From: a virus
Direction: 5' to 3' (one strand)
DNA: 42,139 nucleotides
Virus record (IMG/VR): IMGVR_UViG_3300045911_000040
Location: 1 to 42,139 of that record
Part shown: one piece after another, positions 7,822 to 39,289 of the stretch
Layout: the number at the start of each line of letters is the position of its first letter
Position numbering within the stretch: position 1 is the stretch's first letter
Notes under the pieces: generated by a model
Databases searched by the model: none
What the model was told of the DNA's origin: nothing
Seen by the model: the letters and a program-made list of their open reading frames with translations, nothing else
Position numbers and translations under genes: made by a program

Positions 7822-9170
7822 TGGCCGACACAAAGCTGAGTGCCCTCCCCGCTTTTACGCCGGTCTTGGGCGACGCAGTTTACGGGGTGGACGACCCAAA
7901 CGGAACGCCTGTTTCGGGGTCATTGTCGCTGCAAAGCATCTGGACGCTATTTCAGGGCGATGTGTCCGGAGATGCGCTGATCGCGTCCGGGGTTTTGACC
8001 ATCCAAAACGCCACGATCACCGACGCCAAGATCAGCAACCGAACCGCGCTTTCGGTGTTTGGGCGGTCGGCCAACTCGTCCGGTGTCGGGGCTGACATCG
8101 CGGCGGGCACGGACGGGCATGTGCTGCGGCGCTCGGGCACGACACTGGCGTTCGGCACGTTGGCGGCGGGGGCCTTCGCAGCGAACACGGCGCCCCTCAG
8201 CACGCTTGCCAGCCCGGCGGCGAACACCATCCTTGCGAACGCCACGGGCTCGACGGCGGCGGTCACGGCGGTTGCGGTTGGTGCGAACACCGTCGTCGGG
8301 CGTGCTGGCGGCAACATCGTGGCGGCGCAGCTAGCCACGGGGCAGGTCGCCAACAACGCCATCGACAACACGAAGGTCGCGGACATGGCGGCGAACACGG
8401 TCAAAGTCCGGGCCGCGGCCACCACTGGCGATCCGTCTGACCTTCCCCTTGCCGCGTCTCAGCTTCTCGGGCGCGGGGCTACGGGCGACGTTGCGGCGAT
8501 CACGTTGGGCACAAACCTGTCCATGACTGGCACGACGCTGAACGCCACAGGCGGGCTGTCGGACATCGCAGCGCAATCGTTGCTGGCGAACGCCACCGGG
8601 TCGTCCGCTGTGCCTGTTGAGTTGCCCGTCGCCGCGTCTCGCATCGTGGGGCGCGGGCCGACCGGCAACATCGTCGGGCTGGCGGCTGGCGACGGCATCA
8701 CGATCACGGACACGACTATCTCAGTAGGCGCGACGATAAGCGCCACGAAGGCCACGCCGGTCGATGCAGATCAACTCCCGATCTTTGACAGCGCTGACAG
8801 CAACCTTCCCAAGCTGACAACGGTCGGTGGACTTCGTGCTGCCATTGTCAACACGCAGATCATCGGCACCGGGCTGGCCACCACAGGCACGGTCAACCTC
8901 GACCTCGCTGCGCTCACCGGCACGTTCCAGACGATCACGGCCACAGGCAACCTCACCTTCACCGCCTCGAACTACGCTGCCGGTCGGCGGCTGACGCTTT
9001 GCATCGAGGCAGGCGGTTCCGCCAGAACGCTGGCGTGGCCTTCTGGCTGGGTCAGGATGGGTGCGGCGCTGCCCACTTCGCTTGCCGCCGGTGCGGTCAT
9101 CGTCGTCACACTTCTGGTCCGCAGCACGACAGAGGCCAGCACCATTGTCACGCATCAGGTGTCTGTCTGA
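7821..9170 (+). CDS. Repeat-containing tail fibre or head fibre protein
   Basis: A 449-residue Ala/Thr/Gly-rich protein with several imperfect repeats of the form VGRxxTGNIVxLxxG: [50 protein letters not shown] and [16 protein letters not shown], plus two NATGSxAVP-type repeats. Such repeats form elongated trimeric beta structures in phage fibres. The N-terminus ([24 protein letters not shown]) is of a type that attaches fibres to virions. The C-terminal 100 residues form a beta-rich domain ([15 protein letters not shown]). It begins a fibre/spike block placed between tail tubular A and B. Confidence 0.78.
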
Positions 9171-15261: not shown

Positions 15262-17322
15262 ATGGTAGGACGGCTTCAACAGGCGGAAGTGGCTGGTGGC
15301 GTTCGTGGGGACGCCCTTATTCCGTCGCGCCAGCTTCCGGCTATGCGGAACCCTCTCGAAGACGTGGCGGACTATCTAATCCGTCGCAACGCCCGAGTGA
15401 AAGAGGACGACACGCTGTCGGACAACCTTCGACTGGCCGAGGCGCAATCTGCCTACGTCCGCCGGGCGACCGAGTTCATGGATGGGCTCGACCCGCTAGC
15501 CCTTGACTATCAAGAACAGCTTGACAGCGGGCTGGCTGCGCTCGCCGACGAGATCGCTTCCCAATACCAAATGGCTCTGCCGGAAAACCAGGCGCGGCTC
15601 CAGTCGGCCTTGACTGTTCGGCGCGATGGGTTCGCGACCGCCGCTGGTTCGCAGCGCCGCGCTGTCGTTGAAGGTGAAGCCGAGCGTCTGGCGACCGCAG
15701 CACTGGATAGGTTCCGCGCCCGAGTGTCTGAGGACCCCTTGGGTTACGCCGCCTACAAGGCCGAGTTCGATCAGCAGATGGAAGCCTTGCGGCCGTCCAT
15801 CGCGCCGGAGCGTCTGCCTGCTTTTGAGGAAGCCGTTCGCAAATCCGGCGATCTGTCGATTATCGACGGCTTGGCGCAACAGGGCGATTTCGACCAGGCG
15901 CGGGAGGTGCTTAACCTTGTTCGGCCGGACCTGTCGCCTGAGGAATACGAACGCACGCGCCGCCGCATCCAGACACTCCAGCAAGAGCGCGTCAGCCAAG
16001 CGGCCGAGATCGGGGCCGCCACGCGGGCCGAACTGTCCGGGCGCTTGGCGCTGGCCCAAACCGAGGAAGAACTGGCGGCCATTGAAGAAGAATTGGCCAT
16101 TGCTGTGCAGCGTGGGGACTACGTGGGCAATGACAGCGAGCGCGTTCGCATCCAGACCCAGATCACGCAAGGCCGCCGGGAACTGACCCAACGGCGCCGG
16201 GAGCGCACCGACATCTACACCCGCCACCAATCGGGCATCGCCCTTGACAGCCAAGCGCAAGTGGACACTGCATGGGAAGTCCACATGGAAACCGCGGCGG
16301 CTCGCGGTCGAGACACGTCCGACCCGCTGGTAGTAGCCAACGAGATCGTCGAGTTCACCAGCCGCACCGGCCAAGTGCCGACGCTTGTGCAGGGCATGAT
16401 GAATGGCGCCGAGGTGTCGGACGACCCGCAGCGCCTGGCGCAGATGGCCGGGATGCACGAAATGGTCAGCCTGCGGAACCCCTACGCCAACAGCGGCGCA
16501 GGCGAGCGTGTCAAGCGCGTCTCGTCTGTTGCCGCCAGCCTCGGGCTGACGACGGTCGAGGCCGCCAACATCGTTCTGGACGCCGAGCGCAACCCTGAAC
16601 GGGTTACCGCCCGCGCGGCCGAGTTCGACGCGGCACCGCCCACGCCGGAGGACGTGTCAAGCCACATCGCAGGGTCGGTGTTCAACGACCGGGCCTTGGG
16701 CTTCATCCCGTGGACCAACACGCTGTCCCGCGACGACGTGGACCCGACGATGATTGCCGATTATATCCGGTTCAAGCGCGAAGCGTTCGCCCTGACCGGG
16801 AGCATGTCCGCGGCCGAGAAGATTGCCGACCGCCGGTTTTCCGAAACCTATGGCGTGTCCTCGACCGGCGGGACGCCACACATCGTGCGCTACCCGCCCG
16901 AGCGGTTCTTGCCGCAGGGCTTGACACCAGCCCAGGCAAATGCGGTGCTTGAAGAAGAACTGGCCCGCAGGTTCGAGGTGCCCGAAATCGGGCCAGATGG
17001 TCGAACGCAAATGGTTCCACTCCGCGGTGCGCGTCTAATTCCGGCGCCTGGCTCCGATACGCGGGTCAACGCGGGACTTGCCCCGGTCTACATGGTCATG
17101 GCGCCGAGCGCCAACCTGGGCGGGGCGTATATCCCTTTTATGGCCAACGGGCAGCCTGTCCAGTTCACGATGCCGACCGAGCGGGAGTTGATCCAGAACA
17201 ACATGGCCTACGGCAGCGCCCGCATCGACCGTGAAAGCAATTTTCGCCGCAGCCGCGCGGCCGAGCGCGGGCGCCAACTTCGCATCGAAATGAACAACTA
17301 CGGAATGGGAGACACTCCATGA
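15262..17322 (+). CDS. Internal virion (ejection) protein, T7 gp15-like
   Basis: A 686-residue, largely helical protein rich in Glu, Arg, Gln and Ala, close in size and position to T7 gp15. That protein forms part of the internal core and the trans-envelope channel used for DNA entry. There are long amphipathic helices (for example about residues 225-310, with LAQTEEELAAIEEELAIAVQRGD) and no signal peptide. The product ends at 17322, overlapping the muramidase start by 4 bases (ATGA), so the two are likely coupled. Identification relies on synteny, size and composition rather than a clear domain. Confidence 0.75.
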   Translation: MVGRLQQAEVAGGVRGDALIPSRQLPAMRNPLEDVADYLIRRNARVKEDDTLSDNLRLAEAQSAYVRRATEFMDGLDPLALDYQEQLDSGLAALADEIASQYQMALPENQARLQSALTVRRDGFATAAGSQRRAVVEGEAERLATAALDRFRARVSEDPLGYAAYKAEFDQQMEALRPSIAPERLPAFEEAVRKSGDLSIIDGLAQQGDFDQAREVLNLVRPDLSPEEYERTRRRIQTLQQERVSQAAEIGAATRAELSGRLALAQTEEELAAIEEELAIAVQRGDYVGNDSERVRIQTQITQGRRELTQRRRERTDIYTRHQSGIALDSQAQVDTAWEVHMETAAARGRDTSDPLVVANEIVEFTSRTGQVPTLVQGMMNGAEVSDDPQRLAQMAGMHEMVSLRNPYANSGAGERVKRVSSVAASLGLTTVEAANIVLDAERNPERVTARAAEFDAAPPTPEDVSSHIAGSVFNDRALGFIPWTNTLSRDDVDPTMIADYIRFKREAFALTGSMSAAEKIADRRFSETYGVSSTGGTPHIVRYPPERFLPQGLTPAQANAVLEEELARRFEVPEIGPDGRTQMVPLRGARLIPAPGSDTRVNAGLAPVYMVMAPSANLGGAYIPFMANGQPVQFTMPTERELIQNNMAYGSARIDRESNFRRSRAAERGRQLRIEMNNYGMGDTP

Positions 17323-17981
17323 CCACGATCCCCGAAAGCGCCCGCAACATCCTGTCCTTCATCTCGTCGAAGGAAGCCCCCCGTGGGGCCGTGGACTACT
17401 TCCGGGGCGTCCGCATCCCACCCCCGCGCCCGCTGACGGAGATGACCATCAACGAAGTCTTGGCGTGGCAGCGACAGGCGGTGCGCGCCGGGTCGTTTTC
17501 CGCCGCGGCGGGCAAGTTCCAGATCATCACACCGACGCTGACCAGCCTGCGCGACGAACTCGGGCTTACCGGCAATGAGTTGTTCGACGAAGCCATGCAG
17601 GACCGCATGGGGTTCCAGCTTCTGCGCCGTCGTGGGTGGGACAAGTTTGCAAGGGGCCAAATCACAGAGGCTCAGTTCGCCAACAACCTGGCGCAAGAAT
17701 GGGCCATTCTTCCCCTCGTGTCCGGGCCGAAAGCGGGCCGGTCGGTCTATCAAGGCGACGGCGTGAACCGTGCGGGCGTGTCGCCCGAGACGATCCTCGC
17801 CGTGATCTCGGGCCGCAAGGTTGTTCCGACCCGCGTGTCCGGCGATCCGATGCCGCCCATGCCCCCGGTCCCGCGGCCGGACACGAAGGGGGAGGGGATG
17901 CCCCCGGCGCCCGGCCCTTTTTCGGGGCTGATCCGCTGGCTGGCAACCCTGCTTTCGAGCCTGCGGCACCGGGACAAGTAG
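17319..17981 (+). CDS. Lambda-R-like muramidase (unshifted product)
   Basis: The frame-0 product has 220 residues. Its enzyme part (about 1-165) resembles the lambda endolysin fold: E19 in SSKEAPRG as likely catalytic acid, GKFQII (65-70), helix NELFDEAMQDRMGFQLLRRRGW, and FANNLAQEWAILP. It would cleave the glycan strand of peptidoglycan. A Pro-rich linker (PMPPMPPVPRP) follows. The frame-0 C-terminus, SGLIRWLATLLSSLRHRDK, reads as an amphipathic cationic helix like those ending some endolysins of Gram-negative phages. No other endolysin gene is visible. A -1 slip at 17915-17921 would instead fuse the enzyme to the large ejection protein. Confidence 0.85.
   Translation: MTTIPESARNILSFISSKEAPRGAVDYFRGVRIPPPRPLTEMTINEVLAWQRQAVRAGSFSAAAGKFQIITPTLTSLRDELGLTGNELFDEAMQDRMGFQLLRRRGWDKFARGQITEAQFANNLAQEWAILPLVSGPKAGRSVYQGDGVNRAGVSPETILAVISGRKVVPTRVSGDPMPPMPPVPRPDTKGEGMPPAPGPFSGLIRWLATLLSSLRHRDK
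17915..17966 (+). promoter_or_regulatory. Candidate -1 programmed ribosomal frameshift site
   Basis: In the muramidase frame the codons are GGC CCT TTT TCG. The heptamer C CCT TTT (17915-17921) is a perfect X XXY YYZ slippery site: both tRNAs can re-pair after a -1 slip, to CCC and TTT. Eleven bases downstream is a stem-loop, CCGCTGGCT (17933-17941), 16-base loop, AGCCTGCGG (17958-17966), eight pairs around one T-T mismatch. A purine-rich GGGGGAGGGG lies about 17 bases upstream and could act like an internal Shine-Dalgarno stimulator. The -1 frame then stays open for 1425 codons. Confidence 0.65.
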
Positions 17982-20900
17982 CGCCCGGCGGAGCGTCCTA
18001 CGGGGGCATCGCTCCCGTAGATCAACCCAACGCCAACATCCAGATTGCCCCCGGCGAGGTCGCCCCACTGGCGCCTGCAACGCCCACGGCTTCTGCCGCC
18101 GCGGGGCAACCCGTCACGCCGGTCGTCCAAGAGATGATCGCGGGCTCGCCCGCGCCCGTCGATCCGGCCGTCGTGCAGACGCTTCCTCCCGGGGCAGCCG
18201 CGCCTGACGCAGTGCAGGCCGCCCCCGCGGCCGGGGAGCCCGTGCCTGCCACGCAACCGACTGTCACTACGGGTAATGGCCCCATCACGGTATACCTGCC
18301 GGGCGGCATCCAGCAACCCAAGCCAGGCTTCTTCGCAGGCGCAGGGCGGCAGATCGGGGCCGATTGGCAACTTAATACCGAACTCGGAGCCGTAGTTTCT
18401 GCTCTCCTAAATGCGGACAGCGATGATCCTACAACCACAATCAACAAGTTGTCCGACACCGAATTGTGGAACAGCCTGACGGACGACGAGAAGGCCACGC
18501 CCGAGTTTTTTGCCGACGTGTTGACTGCCCGCGATCTAGCCGAGCGACGGGCCGCGCTGCGGCGTCGAGACGAGTTGGAAGATCAAGTCGGCGATGGGCC
18601 GTTGCCTGCTATTCTTGCCAGCATCATTGCTCAATTTGGTAGCCCAATCAACTATATCCCCATCGCGGGTGTCGGGTCCAAAGCTGTGACGGGCGCCCGC
18701 ACGGGCTTGGCGGCGTTCGGTCGGTCGGCTGCGCTCGTGGGTGGCTCGTCCATTGCGCTGACGGCGGCGCAGGAAACCTTCATCCACCAGGTGCAGGCAG
18801 GCCGGACGCTGGGCGAAAGCCTGACTGCGATGGCCATGTCTGGTTTGATCGGCTCCGGCCTCGGTGGCCCTTTAGGCGTGCTGGCACGCCGTGGCGCCAT
18901 TCGCCGGGCCGAGGTCGATGCTTTCGATGCGGCGGCTGTCGATGCTTTCGATGCTGCCTTGGCGGCAGAAATCGAGCCCCCCGCGGCGGCCCGCGTCAAA
19001 GGTAATATTGTAACACTTGCCGACGAAGCCCCGCCGCCCGGTAGAGTTGTTGACGATTTGGCCAACAAGCCACTGGTCCCGGACGCCTACGACGAAGCGG
19101 TCGCCGCCGGGCGTGGGTTGTCGGAAGCCGAGCGGATTGCCTTGGCCCAGCGGGCTGACGAGGGGGGCTTCTTTACGACCGAAGAACTCGGGCGGATGGA
19201 GGGGGCCAAGCAGACATTTGACGGGGAACTGGCGGGCGTGCGCGCCAAGATCGCCGAGGTCGAAGCGTCCATCGAAAACCTGACCCGACTGCGCGAAGAA
19301 GCGACCGACCGCGGCCCACGTCAGTCTTATGGCCAACGCCTGCGCCGCAAGCGGGAGGAACTGGAGGCTTTGGCCGCCCGGGAACTCGACCTTTCAGAAA
19401 TCCGCCGGGCGCTTGATGACGCGGCCAACGGAGGCTTGCGGCTTGTCCGCGCAACCGCCCGGGAAATGGCCGACACGATCAACCGCACGGTCGAGGAACC
19501 TCGGCCAGTGCGCAACAGCGCGCAAATCGCGGATGACCTCGCTTATTTAGAAGAACTCGTAGCCGCATCCGAACGACGGCTTGAGGGCCGGACCGAAACG
19601 CTGGGCGCTGGTCCGCGCCGCCCGCCGCCGCCCCGCAACCTTGGTGAAGTCGAGGCGCAGGCGATGGATGTGAACCAGCCCGCCGAACTGGAGATGCAAG
19701 GCACCGCTCGCAGCCTGTCCGCCGGTGCGGCGCCCAGGTTCGTGGGCTCTACCGATATGAAATACGATCCCGCCGACACGCGGCTTTTTGCGCGAAACAT
19801 GCTGTCAAGACTGGCTTTGGCGATCTACAAGAAAGGCCAAGGGCGGTTCAAGACAATAGGCGAAGCCGCCAGCGTGATCCCCCGCCTGTCCAACCTCGGA
19901 GTGGCCAACCCAGGGATTACTTTGGCAGGGAGCCGGTGGGCCAGCACCCGTGAATACGCCATGCGGATGGCCGCTATCGGTCTGGAATTCGTGGGGCCTA
20001 ACGCCGGTCGAGCGTTTCAAAACCACGTTCCGGTGGAGATGCTTATTCGGTCGCGAGTAGACCCCATGGTCCACCGGGCGCGGGCTTTAGTTGACACAGG
20101 CTATCGCTCGTATCTTCGGGATGTGAAGGCTTTTAACAAGCAAGCCAAAATGGCCGGGCAGCCCACTCGCCCGGTGCTAACACCCAACGAGTTCTCCGCG
20201 GCCGTGTCGGAGGCTGTGTCCCGCGCGGACCTGGACCCCACCAACCCGCAACGGAGCAAGCATATCAGCATGGTGGCAAAGCAAGTCCACGATCAGTATT
20301 TCCGCCCGCTGTTCGATGAACTCACCAACGCTGGGCTGCTGAAAGACTTGCCGCCGGATGCGTCGGTTGGCTATCTGATGCGCGTGTGGGACACAGCGGC
20401 TATCCAAAGCCATTTGCCGATTTTCCGCGAAAAGATTGGCGACTACATCCGAAAGGCACCGGGTGCAAATGCGTATACCCAAGCGGAATTGTCGAAGATT
20501 GTCAGCGACACAGTGAACAACATAATCTCTCCGATGACAGACATCGGCTTTCCTCGCTACCGAATTGTGGCTGAGCGCGGCCCGTTAGCAACTCGGGAAT
20601 TGCACATCCCGAACGAAGCTGTAGACCGCGTGGCCGTCCCGGATGACAAAGGGGGGCACAAGATTGTCAGCTTCATCAACAACGACATACGCTACCTCTT
20701 GGAGCGGTATATCCGAACGGCTGTTGCCGATCTAGCCATGACCAAAGAGTTTGGCAGCCCTAATCCTATGGACGACATTCTAAAGAAAATGTCAGACGAA
20801 GCGCAACGGGACATCGCAAGCCGCCGCGCCGCCGGAGAGTTGACCGAGGCGCAAGCGAGGGCGCTGGGCCGCGAACTTGAACACGAGAAAGCCGCCATGC

Positions 20901-22198
20901 TGACCGTCTACGAGCGCGTGCGCGGCACTTCGTCAATTCCCATAGACCCGACCTACGACGTGCCCAGACGCATCTTGCATCAGCTTCGGAACATGACAGT
21001 GCTACGGCTTATGGGCCTCGGCGCGACAGCCCAGCTTCCCGACACCGGTCGCATGGTGATGCAGCAAGGTGTGTCTCGCGTTTACGGCGATCTGTTCCGC
21101 GAAATGCAAACCGCTTTCCGCGGGGTCAGAGCCAACGTCAAGGATTTGCGCCAAGCTAACGTAGGCACGGACATAATTCTCGCCACCACGGCCCGACGCA
21201 TCACGGACGCCGGAACGAACATGCACTCGCGCACGATGATCGAGCGCGCGGGCGACCGAGGGGTCGAACTTATGTATCTGTGGAACGGCATGAACCACAT
21301 GAACGCAGCCACCAAAACCTTCTCCGGCTTTGGCGCCATACAAGAAATCCTGGAGAGTGCGGACTTGGTGTCTCGGGGCGCAGCACTAGACCCAAAAACC
21401 CAAGTCCGGTTGGCCCGCATGGGGATTTCCACAGAGGACTTGTCTCGGATCGCCGAACAGCGCGATCCGAACCGGTGGCGTGTCGGGCGGGGAGAGCCGG
21501 ACCCGGAGTTCGGCTGGTTCCAAACGCCGGAAGGTGCATATGTCGGCGGGCTCGACACTTGGCCGGATAGAGAGTTGGCCGAGCGGGTAGGCCAACGGCT
21601 GCTGATGTTGACTGACGATACTATTATAACTCCTGGCGCGGCCGACACTCCACGCTTTTTTGACACCTGGTGGGGCCGGATGTTTGGAACCCTGAAACGG
21701 TTCATGTTTGCTGCTGCGGGGCGCACGACATTGGTCGGGCTTCAACGCCAAGACGCAGACGCTCTGCTGGGTATGACCCAGATGCTGGCCTTCGGGGCAC
21801 TTTCGCTCTACCTACGCTACGCGCTCACTAATCGCTTGGCGGAACTGGAGAAAATGGACACGAACGAGTTCATCTTGAACTCTATTGACCGTTCCGGCAT
21901 CGTGCCGCTGTTTTTTGAGGCGGACAACGCAATCGGGTCCATCGTGGGCACTTACGCTCAACCCACTCGCTTGATGACCGGCGCTGCTCCGCTTCGGACT
22001 TCCGAAGCAGCAATGGCCAAATACGTCGCAGGGGCGCCCGGCTCTTACCTCATCGACGCCGCTCAAACGGCAAAATACATCGCCGACAAGGACTGGGAAG
22101 TTGCAGCCAATGACTGGTGGCGCATGATACGTCTGATGCCTGGGAACAACCTGGTGTGGTGGGCGTGGCTTTTGGAAACGCAGCGGCCGGAGCGTTGA
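17921..22198 (+). CDS. Giant internal virion protein, T7 gp16-like, -1 frame
   Basis: From the slip point this frame encodes 1425 residues. Joined to the first 201 of the muramidase it gives about 1626, an N-terminal glycosidase plus huge helical domain as in T7 gp16, the ejected channel protein. A Pro/Ala-rich linker leads into FFAGAGRQIGADWQLNTELG, a hydrophobic small-residue region (about 18650-18900) and long coiled-coil and helical parts. Upstream of 17921 the frame is only a shadow of the muramidase. The first in-frame ATG is at 18134, without a good ribosome binding site. A separate start there is the alternative; an indel in the T-run is another. Confidence 0.8.
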   Translation, partial: FGADPLAGNPAFEPAAPGQVAPGGASYGGIAPVDQPNANIQIAPGEVAPLAPATPTASAAAGQPVTPVVQEMIAGSPAPVDPAVVQTLPPGAAAPDAVQAAPAAGEPVPATQPTVTTGNGPITVYLPGGIQQPKPGFFAGAGRQIGADWQLNTELGAVVSALLNADSDDPTTTINKLSDTELWNSLTDDEKATPEFFADVLTARDLAERRAALRRRDELEDQVGDGPLPAILASIIAQFGSPINYIPIAGVGSKAVTGARTGLAAFGRSAALVGGSSIALTAAQETFIHQVQAGRTLGESLTAMAMSGLIGSGLGGPLGVLARRGAIRRAEVDAFDAAAVDAFDAALAAEIEPPAAARVKGNIVTLADEAPPPGRVVDDLANKPLVPDAYDEAVAAGRGLSEAERIALAQRADEGGFFTTEELGRMEGAKQTFDGELAGVRAKIAEVEASIENLTRLREEATDRGPRQSYGQRLRRKREELEALAARELDLSEIRRALDDAANGGLRLVRATAREMADTINRTVEEPRPVRNSAQIADDLAYLEELVAASERRLEGRTETLGAGPRRPPPPRNLGEVEAQAMDVNQPAELEMQGTARSLSAGAAPRFVGSTDMKYDPADTRLFARNMLSRLALAIYKKGQGRFKTIGEAASVIPRLSNLGVANPGITLAGSRWASTREYAMRMAAIGLEFVGPNAGRAFQNHVPVEMLIRSRVDPMVHRARALVDTGYRSYLRDVKAFNKQAKMAGQPTRPVLTPNEFSAAVSEAVSRADLDPTNPQRSKHISMVAKQVHDQYFRPLFDELTNAGLLKDLPPDASVGYLMRVWDTAAIQSHLPIFREKIGDYIRKAPGANAYTQAELSKIVSDTVNNIISPMTDIGFPRYRIVAERGPLATRELHIPNEAVDRVAVPDDKGGHKIVSFINNDIRYLLERYIRTAVADLAMTKEFGSPNPMDDILKKMSDEAQRDIASRRAAGELTEAQARALGRELEHEKAAMLTVYERVRGTSSIPIDPTYDVPRRILHQLRNMTVLRLMGLGATAQLPDTGRMVMQQGVSRVYGDLFREMQTAFRGVRANVKDLRQANVGTDIILATTARRITDAGTNMHSRTMIERAGDRGVELMYLWNGMNHMNAATKTFSGFGAIQEILESADLVSRGAALDPKTQVRLARMGISTEDLSRIAEQRDPNRWRVGRGEPDPEFGWFQTPEGAYVGGLDTWPDRELAERVGQRLLMLTDDTIITPGAADTPRFFDTWWGRMFGTLKRFMFAAAGRTTLVGLQRQDADALLGMTQMLAFGALSLYLRYALTNRLAELEKMDTNEFILNSIDRSGIVPLFFEADNAIGSIVGTYAQPTRLMTGAAPLRTSEAAMAKYVAGAPGSYLIDAAQTAKYIADKDWEVAANDWWRMIRLMPGNNLVWWAWLLETQRPER

Positions 22199-23813: not shown

Positions 23814-24086
23814 ATGTCGGACTGGCTGAACCACCTTCTCGACCGCTGGTCGGTGTTGACGTTCATTGCGGGCGCCGTATTCGCCGCGATCTGGGGTCGG
23901 GCGACCCGAGCGGCCAAAGCTGAAATGCTTGCTCGGGAAGTGGCCCAACTCCGCGCGGACGTTGCAGATATGCAAGGCCGGATCGCCCGGGGGGATACGC
24001 AATTCGCCGTGCTTACCGCCGAGATCGGCTTCATCAAGGCCAGCATATCCCGGATCGAGCAACACATCATGAGCATGAAAGGATGA
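23814..24086 (+). CDS. Membrane-anchored coiled-coil protein of the lysis cassette
   Basis: This 90-residue protein has one N-terminal membrane segment (about residues 13-27, VLTFIAGAVFAAIWG), followed by a long heptad-like helix (AKAEMLAREVAQLRADVADMQGRIARG and on). It overlaps the next gene by 4 bases (ATGA). It could be a holin-associated or spanin-like membrane protein, and similar proteins are often annotated only as phage membrane coiled coils. Location next to spanins supports a role in lysis. Confidence 0.7.
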   Translation: MSDWLNHLLDRWSVLTFIAGAVFAAIWGRATRAAKAEMLAREVAQLRADVADMQGRIARGDTQFAVLTAEIGFIKASISRIEQHIMSMKG

Positions 24087-24334
24087 AACCAATGGACCGC
24101 CCCAGCATCTTCGCCAGTGCCTTTGCCCGCATCCTGATCCGATACGCGGTCGGACCCTTCGTTGCCTTGGTGTTCGCGGGGTCGCCGGTCGTGGCCGAGT
24201 TGATCGCTGATCCCGATTTGCACTTCCTGGTCGAGGTCGGGCTCCAGACCTTGGGCGTGACCCTTGGGGGTGTTTTGGTTGCCAAGACAGAAATGTCCCG
24301 CATCAAGGCCAAGCGTGAAGGGGGCGACCTGTGA
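24083..24334 (+). CDS. Putative holin (two membrane segments)
   Basis: An 83-residue protein with two probable membrane helices, about residues 17-40 (ILIRYAVGPFVALVFAGSPVVAEL) and 48-68 (FLVEVGLQTLGVTLGGVLVA), and a short Lys/Arg-rich C-terminus (MSRIKAKREGGDL). Size, topology and place in front of the spanin pair fit a class II holin that would release the muramidase to the periplasm. It overlaps both neighbours (ATGA before, GTGA after). No family match is claimed. Confidence 0.65.
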   Translation: MKPMDRPSIFASAFARILIRYAVGPFVALVFAGSPVVAELIADPDLHFLVEVGLQTLGVTLGGVLVAKTEMSRIKAKREGGDL

Positions 24335-24432
24335 TACGGGTGGGTTTGATCGTCATGGCGTGTGCCGCGTTCCTGCTTTTGGCGGCGCTGGCGCCGGGGT
24401 TTGATGTGTGGACCGGGGGGCCGATGCGATGA
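24331..24432 (+). CDS. 33-residue single-span membrane protein, GTG start
   Basis: A GTG at 24331 overlaps the upstream stop (GTGA), and its own stop overlaps the ATG of the i-spanin gene (ATGA at 24429). The peptide MIRVGLIVMACAAFLLLAAL followed by a short polar tail is one clean membrane helix. Coupling at both ends makes translation likely. It may modulate holin timing, for example as an antiholin or pinholin-like partner, which is inference. Confidence 0.5.
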   Translation: MIRVGLIVMACAAFLLLAALAPGFDVWTGGPMR

Positions 24433-24725
24433 TCTGGAAACTGGTTGCGTGGCTGATGAGCCAGTCGTGGGCCAAGTGGGCCATGGCTGCCGTGGGCGTC
24501 CTAGGGGCGTTGGAGGTCTACATTGCGCGGGAGCGCCGCCGGGCCGTCAGCGCGGCAGAAGCCCAGCGCGAGCGCGATGCCGCGCGTTGGGGACGCGATC
24601 TGGCCGACCGGGTTCGGCAAAACGAAGGGAGATTGAACGATGAAGCGACTGGCTCTGGCGATCCTCGCCGCGTTTATCTTGACTTCCTGCGGAAGCGTGG
24701 GCGGGTTCGGCCGCCCGGTAACTGA
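24429..24725 (+). CDS. Inner-membrane spanin (Rz-like)
   Basis: A 98-residue protein with an N-terminal membrane segment (about residues 18-36, AKWAMAAVGVLGALEVYIA) and a charged coiled-coil periplasmic part (RERRRAVSAAEAQRERDAARWGRDLADRVRQNE). A lipoprotein gene starts inside it in another frame at 24640 and runs past its end, the classic Rz/Rz1 arrangement. Spanins fuse inner and outer membranes in the last step of lysis. The ATG at 24429 overlaps the preceding stop codon. Confidence 0.83.
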   Translation: MIWKLVAWLMSQSWAKWAMAAVGVLGALEVYIARERRRAVSAAEAQRERDAARWGRDLADRVRQNEGRLNDEATGSGDPRRVYLDFLRKRGRVRPPGN

Positions 24726-24852
24726 CCTCGACGCCGCCTGCCAAGTGTGGCGCGACCGGCTGCCTGTCGTGTCGGAAGACGCGCCGCTGGCCGATCTCCA
24801 GCAAGCAGCGCGCCAGGTTCTGGCTTACGAGGAAGCCTGCGGGTCGTTGTAG
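24640..24852 (+). CDS. Outer-membrane spanin lipoprotein (Rz1-like)
   Basis: A 70-residue lipoprotein: signal peptide MKRLALAILAAFILTSC with lipobox LTSC (cysteine at residue 17), then a short periplasmic region. It overlaps the i-spanin gene by 86 bases in a different frame, which strongly supports both calls. It would be anchored in the outer membrane and bind the i-spanin. Its end overlaps the convergent DUF6378 gene by 28 bases, so the rightward and leftward operons meet here without a visible terminator. Confidence 0.85.
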   Translation: MKRLALAILAAFILTSCGSVGGFGRPVTDLDAACQVWRDRLPVVSEDAPLADLQQAARQVLAYEEACGSL

Positions 24853-38124: not shown

Positions 38125-38838
38125 TCACGACTTGGCCCAGTGCATCCGGGCAAGGCCCATAACGACCAGATCGAACTCCGTGTCACTGACGCCGTTGGCC
38201 TTGGCGAACTCGTAGCCGTCAGCCCCAAGCCACCAATCTTTCGGTGCCCACTTGCACCCCGCGCGTAGGGAGGTATCGAACACATTCACGTCAAAACGCC
38301 CCCCGACCACTAGAAGCGGCGTCCGAGAGACCCACGCATCGCCATAGACCCACGCATCGCCATAGACCCGCGCGCGGCCATAGACCCGCGCGCGGCCATA
38401 GACCCGCGCATTGCCATAGACCCGCGCATCGCCATAGACCTGCGCACCGCCATAGACCTGCACATTGCCGTAGACCTTCGCAGTGCCGCAGACCTGCGCA
38501 GTGCCGTAGACCTGCGCAGTGCCGTAGACCGAGGCATCGTCGTAGACCGAGGCGCGGCCACAGACCCGTGCATCGTCATAGGCCCACGCAGTGCCATAGA
38601 CCCGCGCGTTGCCATAGACCCGCGCGCAGCCGTAGACCTGCGCGTTGCCGTAAACCCGCGCGTTGCCGTAAACCCGCGCGTTGCCGTAAACCCGCGCGTC
38701 GCCAAAGACCTGCGCATTGGGGCCGACATACGCGGTTTCTGAAACATAAGCCATATCTGCGACCCAGCCGCCACCGTTTGGGTGCTTATGGGCCGGAACG
38801 GGGCCACTGCCGTCCTGAAAGTCGAAAGTCGTGCCCAT
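38125..38838 (-). CDS. Hexapeptide-repeat (left-handed beta-helix) protein
   Basis: The 237-residue product has about 24 consecutive hexads from residue 31, mainly of the form A-R/Q-V-Y-G-x, for example ARVYGN and AQVYGT. At three hexads per turn this gives about eight coils of a left-handed beta-helix, as in YdcK-type acyltransferase-like proteins. The N-terminus is polar without signal peptide; the C-terminal 70 residues (WAPKDWWLGADGYEFAKANGVS) form a separate cap. Whether it is an enzyme or a scaffold is unclear. ATG 38838 is two bases after... the upstream stop region (TGACATG), preferred to the longer frame from 38988. Confidence 0.85.
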   Translation of the reverse strand: MGTTFDFQDGSGPVPAHKHPNGGGWVADMAYVSETAYVGPNAQVFGDARVYGNARVYGNARVYGNAQVYGCARVYGNARVYGTAWAYDDARVCGRASVYDDASVYGTAQVYGTAQVCGTAKVYGNVQVYGGAQVYGDARVYGNARVYGRARVYGRARVYGDAWVYGDAWVSRTPLLVVGGRFDVNVFDTSLRAGCKWAPKDWWLGADGYEFAKANGVSDTEFDLVVMGLARMHWAKS

Positions 38839-38839
38839 G

Positions 38840-39289
38840 TCAGAGCCCTTTCTCAGCAAACAATTCCCGAAGCAGTTCCATGATGTCATGGTGCGACAGC
38901 ACGTCGTTTTCGTCGATCTCGAATTCGACCTGCGCCTTGCCCCAATCCGTCCACGCCCGGATGACAGGCTTGTAAGCCGTCTGCGCAAAGGCGTAACGGA
39001 TGAACTGGCGCCCGTCCGGCGTTTCCACAGCCTTGTCCACGTCGCTGCGGTTCAGGAACCGGAACAGTATCGCGTTCAAACGCGAGCGCGTCGTGCGCGT
39101 ATTCCACCCCGACAGCGCTACGGAAAGCATCGGTGCGCCGGTGTTCGTCCGGGCCAGGGCGGCGATGGCGTTCCCGTTCAGCCGCACGATCACGCTCCCG
39201 AACTCGGTCGGCGCCACCTCGGTGTTCTTCTTGCGCCACGCCCGGCCCTCGAACAGCGCGTTCACCATCTGCTTCTCGATCTCTCTCAT
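38840..39289 (-). CDS. First gene of the leftward early operon, unknown
   Basis: A 149-residue protein with an N-terminal charged helix (MREIEKQMVNALFEGRAWRKKNTEV), a central beta-rich part and an acidic helical C-terminus (VEFEIDENDVLSHHDIMELLRELFAEKG). No family is claimed. A strong AAGGAG lies eight bases before ATG 39289, which beats the longer frame from 39373 that would run through the promoter. Being first after the early promoter, it is a candidate host-takeover gene. Confidence 0.75.
   Translation of the reverse strand: MREIEKQMVNALFEGRAWRKKNTEVAPTEFGSVIVRLNGNAIAALARTNTGAPMLSVALSGWNTRTTRSRLNAILFRFLNRSDVDKAVETPDGRQFIRYAFAQTAYKPVIRAWTDWGKAQVEFEIDENDVLSHHDIMELLRELFAEKGL

Follow-up and report, generated by a model that had tools for sequence, protein, structure and literature searches.

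A cell-wall lysin and a T7 gp16-type ejection protein are encoded in overlapping frames of a viral record, and the two are probably joined by a programmed -1 frameshift, as judged from the sequence. The window, which is the whole record of 42,139 bases (~64% G+C), contains both frames, members of both protein families, an in-phase slippery heptamer and, ahead of all normal starts of the gp16 frame, a coding signal in that frame. We infer that a slip occurs, together with its site, its rate and the role of the free product. Lysin translation would start at ATG 17319, coupled to the stop codon of the upstream gp15-like gene, and most ribosomes would terminate at TAG 17979, releasing a free 220-aa lysin of the lambda R type. 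At C CCT TTT, a minority would move back by one base into the gp16 frame and make a 1626-aa chain, consisting of the lytic domain, a Pro/Ala linker and a gp16-like membrane and DNA-ejection part. This fusion would be packaged as an ejection protein, with the lytic part opening the cell wall and the rest entering the membrane, helping to form a channel and to draw in the DNA.

By its PHROG matches the phage is short-tailed, and its virion genes (terminase, portal, major head protein, tail proteins, internal virion proteins) are T7-like. The features discussed below are listed in Table 1. The stop codon of the gp15-like gene overlaps the start of the lysin ORF (ATGA), and the spanin pair consists of an ORF at 24408-24725 and an embedded lipoprotein-like ORF at 24640-24852 (LTSC). 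A protein encoded on the minus strand (38125-38988), in which short VYGNARVYG-like repeats form a long run, matches phage families of unknown function.

Table 1. Features of the lysin-gp16 region and of the holin- and spanin-like genes
Feature	Position	Strand	Basis
gp15-like internal virion protein, 686 aa	15262..17322	+	Homologous to the syntenic gp15-like gene in records G010, G008 and others
Free lysin, 220 aa	17319..17981	+	PHROG, profile, fold, invariant Glu19, model
gp16-type ejection protein frame, -1 to the lysin	17579..22198	+	Open frame; phrog_16310, phrog_342; alignment of relatives; coding signal
Slippery heptamer C CCT TTT	17915..17921	+	Lysin phase; sequence
Pro/Ala-rich linker, gp16 frame	17921..18330	+	Codon signal, start survey; no usable start before ATG 18134
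Frame-0 tail SGLIRWLATLLSSLRHRDK and stop, overlapping the gp16 frame	17922..17981	+	Both frames score as coding
Stem-loop	17933..17966	+	Forms, but no better than background
Holin-like ORF, two hydrophobic stretches	24083..24334	+	Translation inspected; without PHROG match
Rz/Rz1-like spanin pair	24408..24852	+	Translations inspected; without PHROG match

The lysin ORF, from ATG 17319 to the stop TAG 17979-17981, encodes a lambda-R-type lysozyme domain (about residues 1-165), a Pro-rich linker and a cationic amphipathic helical tail. The protein falls into the PHROG endolysin family phrog_90 (E 1e-16) and has lambda lysozyme (1am7) as a distant profile match (E 0.0018). Glu19 is invariant in the 20 sequences of an alignment with relatives. 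The structural model is confident for the domain, for which Foldseek placed lambda lysozyme second among PDB matches; the Pro-rich stretch has low confidence and is followed by a short helix. These weak but consistent indications suggest a lambda R-type lysozyme, by family a lytic transglycosylase, with a catalytic Glu.

The gp16-type protein matches phrog_342 (E 9e-59) and phrog_16310 (E 1e-59). Homology to the gp16 family covers the C-terminal part. Translation of this frame is expected from 17921, and homology to relatives begins at about 18340. An N-terminal lytic domain of the T7 kind, which is not universal in the family, is lacking from the gp16 ORF; the lytic domain here is of the lambda R type and in the other frame. 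Much of what the initial annotation had described is borne out. Its gp16-like region in the -1 frame, open from well before the overlap, runs without a stop from 17579 to 22198; that frame stays open across 133 lysin codons, with a probability of 0.028 under synonymous resampling. The frame was said to have no start near the junction, and ATG 18134, with a weak ribosome-binding site, is the first usable candidate: GTG 17636 and ATG 17699 lie deep within the lysin domain, ATG 18134 is the next ATG, GTG or TTG after these, and starts and ribosome-binding sites around the junction are poor. The length proposed for the shifted product is also correct (201 + 1425 = 1626 codons). The frame-0 enzyme, annotated as a muramidase, is indeed a cell-wall lysin, but of the lambda R type and without homology to the T7 gp16 lytic domain. 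The likeness drawn to T7 gp16 holds for the layout of the product (lytic domain, linker, membrane/DNA-ejection part) and fails for the lytic domains, which are unrelated.

To locate the change of frame, we used a codon-scoring model for which the other late genes of the record served as the training set. The gp16 frame scored 15.9 over 17982-18133, compared to an average of 19.3 for genes, and this value was reached by 0 of 332 open off-frame segments. Since this stretch is gene-like, translation enters the gp16 frame upstream of ATG 18134. The part from 17984 to 18067 scored as coding on its own, making both ATG 18134 and CTG 18068 unlikely starts. The downstream frame is therefore coding without a start of its own, leaving room for rare non-AUG starts. 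It is quite improbable that no fusion forms and that coupling to lysin translation lets the gp16-type protein start separately, from ATG 18134 or from a non-AUG codon such as CTG 17936. Coupled starts do prevail in this lineage, as gp16 begins directly at the gp15 stop in most relatives, and just past the endolysin stop of the cultured phage R8W (below) lies an ATG with a ribosome-binding site. Here, however, the gp16 frame is coding throughout 17984-18133, before ATG 18134; the ribosome-binding site of that ATG is weak, CTG starts are rare, and the Pro-rich lysin tail resembles an interdomain linker.

The 95% interval for the change point between the lysin and gp16 frames is 17897-17981 and contains C CCT TTT, the only in-phase X XXY YYZ heptamer of the lysin ORF. 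The other genes contain 0.0024 in-phase heptamers per codon, which gives an expectation of ~0.07 for 17897-17981. Several observations count against a programmed shift at this site. The optimum of the change point is at 17976, near the stop codon rather than the heptamer. C CCT TTT is not among the strongest known bacterial slippery sites. An SD-like sequence, GGGGGAGGGG (17888-17897), ends 17 bases upstream of the heptamer, whereas the usual distance is 10-14 bases. Of the two signals in the initial annotation, the heptamer at 17915-17921 is present as described, in the lysin phase and with the gp16 frame at -1, but the stem-loop at 17933-17966 is no better than background. Folded alone, the stem has an energy of -15.9 kcal/mol (z -1.8), equalled in 13 of 200 shuffles. 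As the region is average against shuffles in the other cuts (z -0.2, +0.85 and -1.25), we no longer count the stem-loop as support. Since the change-point interval reaches 17981, a different kind of recoding could be considered, either transcriptional slippage at the run or slipping of the ribosome at another place within 17897-17981. We regard this as very unlikely, as the lysin ORF has no second in-phase heptamer and five T (plus three C) make a short run; transcriptional slippage usually needs runs longer than five T.

The main rival to a programmed -1 frameshift is an indel, that is, one continuous lysin-gp16 frame in the real genome or in a recent functional ancestor, broken by an assembly error or a recent mutation. 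The break sits at a C3T5 run in a single copy of the sequence from one metagenome-type record, and a single continuous chain would be the T7 layout. If the contig contained a one-base error, the 19 frame-0 codons after the heptamer would be noise. Instead, this tail is gene-like, with a score reached by only 2 of 3392 off-frame segments. Because that comparison is too generous for dual coding, we also applied the stricter test of synonymous resampling of the gp16 frame, in which the score was still reached in only 0.8% of resamples (p about 0.008). Conversely, the score of the gp16 frame in the tail stretch was reached in 1.5% of resamples if the lysin frame alone is coding, and in 2.8% given an open frame. 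Both frames past the heptamer look translated, with moderate strength for a 19-codon stretch, and the coding frame-0 tail argues moderately against a simple sequencing indel. In addition, comparison with relatives revealed no other frame break in the 14.3 kb of the window with homology, or in 9.6 kb of the relative G041, and the cultured phages H4/4 and R8W share the layout, with the heptamer conserved between them. We therefore consider an indel unlikely, even though the break in G041 also falls in a C/T run and has the opposite direction, as scattered indels might give.

A portal search yielded eight records with a gp16 homologue, and we read the regions of seven. With gp16, lysin, tail protein, major capsid protein and portal as protein queries against viral contigs, the closest relatives had a portal identity of 47% or less. 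In the protein scans of viral contigs and the gp16 scans of genome contigs, no relative had this lysin adjoining gp16, none contained the C CCT TTT heptamer, and no close relative was found; a DNA search among phages gave no match. Among 80 loci with related lysin domains, none had a lysin followed by gp16 in another frame. Two candidates for this arrangement, L113 and L114, were rejected, with the lysin domain located inside other giant proteins. In L113 (4678-11061), the lambda-R-type domain is part of a 2127-aa giant protein that has DarB-like and methyltransferase family matches.

In the seven relatives, gp15 lies directly upstream of gp16 and no lysin ORF separates the two, the gp16 start being adjacent to the gp15 stop or overlapping it; here the lysin ORF intervenes. 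At five gp15/gp16 boundaries (L048 12570, L049 13196, L050 13852, L051 13771 and L052 13886), the two genes share a frame, and only one stop codon, with TTG or ATG immediately after it, stands between them. Reinitiation or stop-codon readthrough is possible at these boundaries.

The position of the lytic domain varies among relatives. In G010 (L051, 10963-13770), a domain of the T7-gp16 type is fused to the C terminus of gp15. In G041, the same domain (45% identical) forms a separate ORF that starts at the gp15 stop. This ORF encodes a T7-gp16-type transglycosylase that is unrelated to the lysin described here; its domain is that of T7-like gp16 (internal virion protein D), with 37-51% identity among the matches listed. 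A review describes that the lytic domain can swap from gp16 to gp15 (PMC8954989). As G010, G041 and the window differ in this respect, unrelated lytic domains occupy the gp15-gp16 slot, attached to either gp15 or gp16. In G041, gp16 follows in the +1 frame with no ATG close to the junction, and the change point (8769-8875, best 8775) falls on a C/T run, GGCCCCCTTTCG, whose counterpart here is GGCCCTTTTTCG. Two features count against a parallel: the G041 frame-0 tail is not gene-like, and the shift is +1 rather than -1. Because its break could be an indel, we take G041 as supporting but not independent proof. A further giant virion protein, in L269 (5892-11488), is split into a 1044-aa ORF with a lambda-R-type lysin domain and an 821-aa ORF (phrog_684), with an ATGA overlap.

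A layout of this kind was annotated in 2017 in Alteromonas phage vB_AspP-H4/4 (MF278336), in which gene 39 encodes an endolysin and gene 40 an internal virion protein made by -1 frameshift (PMC5658483). The slippery sequence was termed putative and the shift was annotated only (PMC5658483). The H4/4 junction reads A AAA AAG TAG, and A AAA AAG is conserved in vB_AmeP_R8W (MW043865), which has 77% DNA identity to H4/4. Both phages share with the window an in-phase slippery heptamer at the junction and the order gp15-like gene, short endolysin ORF, giant internal virion protein in the -1 frame, tail fibre and holin. However, the H4/4 lysin is unrelated (no match), the gp16 similarity is hardly detectable, and A AAA AAG directly precedes the stop codon, while C CCT TTT lies 57 bases before it. 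With the sequences not homologous, the window and the H4/4 pair appear to be alike in layout rather than by descent. As H4/4 was annotated first, this kind of layout had already been proposed, and the window adds a further case, in which both the enzyme and the heptamer are different. In R8W (L273, 4474-4500), A AAA AAG at the end of the endolysin ORF is accompanied by an ATG with a ribosome-binding site just past the stop, and the giant protein may be made there both by a frameshift and from a separate start.

T7 gp16 has its lytic domain within one and the same chain (PMC8954989). Like the proposed fusion, it is a giant ejection protein with an N-terminal lytic domain, encoded just after gp15, and the C-terminal parts are homologous; unlike it, T7 gp16 is encoded by one continuous ORF, and its lytic domain belongs to an unrelated family, the one present in G041. 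In tailed phages, most known cases of recoding concern capsid, tail and tail-assembly proteins. In lambda G/GT, T7 10A/10B and Listeria phages PSA and A118, as proposed here, a minority frameshift yields a C-terminally extended virion or assembly protein. The unextended product in those systems is a capsid, tail or assembly protein, whereas here an enzyme would be extended by the ejection protein. Shifts of -1 and +1 interchange between related phages (PMC5009743).

The initial annotation proposed that frameshifting sets the ratio of free enzyme to ejection protein, which it may do; it is no less plausible that the free lysin has the added role of lysis endolysin. No endolysin gene lies beside the holin- and spanin-like genes (24083-24852), and PHROG matches and reading of the larger ORFs detected no second endolysin elsewhere in the record, which lacks terminal repeats, a result that is suggestive only. 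H4/4 likewise has a holin, and gene 39 is its only annotated endolysin. As a holin occurs in the window and in H4/4 with no other endolysin found or annotated, the free lysin may be the lysis endolysin. Tentatively, one gene might serve both ends of infection, the frame-0 product with its cationic amphipathic tail acting as lysis endolysin and the frameshift product as virion lysin for DNA entry, in a layout that would have arisen repeatedly with unrelated lysins and -1 or +1 shifts. If true, such recurrent recoding would explain how some phages obtain entry and exit lysins from one gene, and could set the low number of ejection proteins per virion; gene callers would split or truncate such proteins. 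The phage of the window, G041, H4/4 and R8W form a concrete set in which this can be tested.
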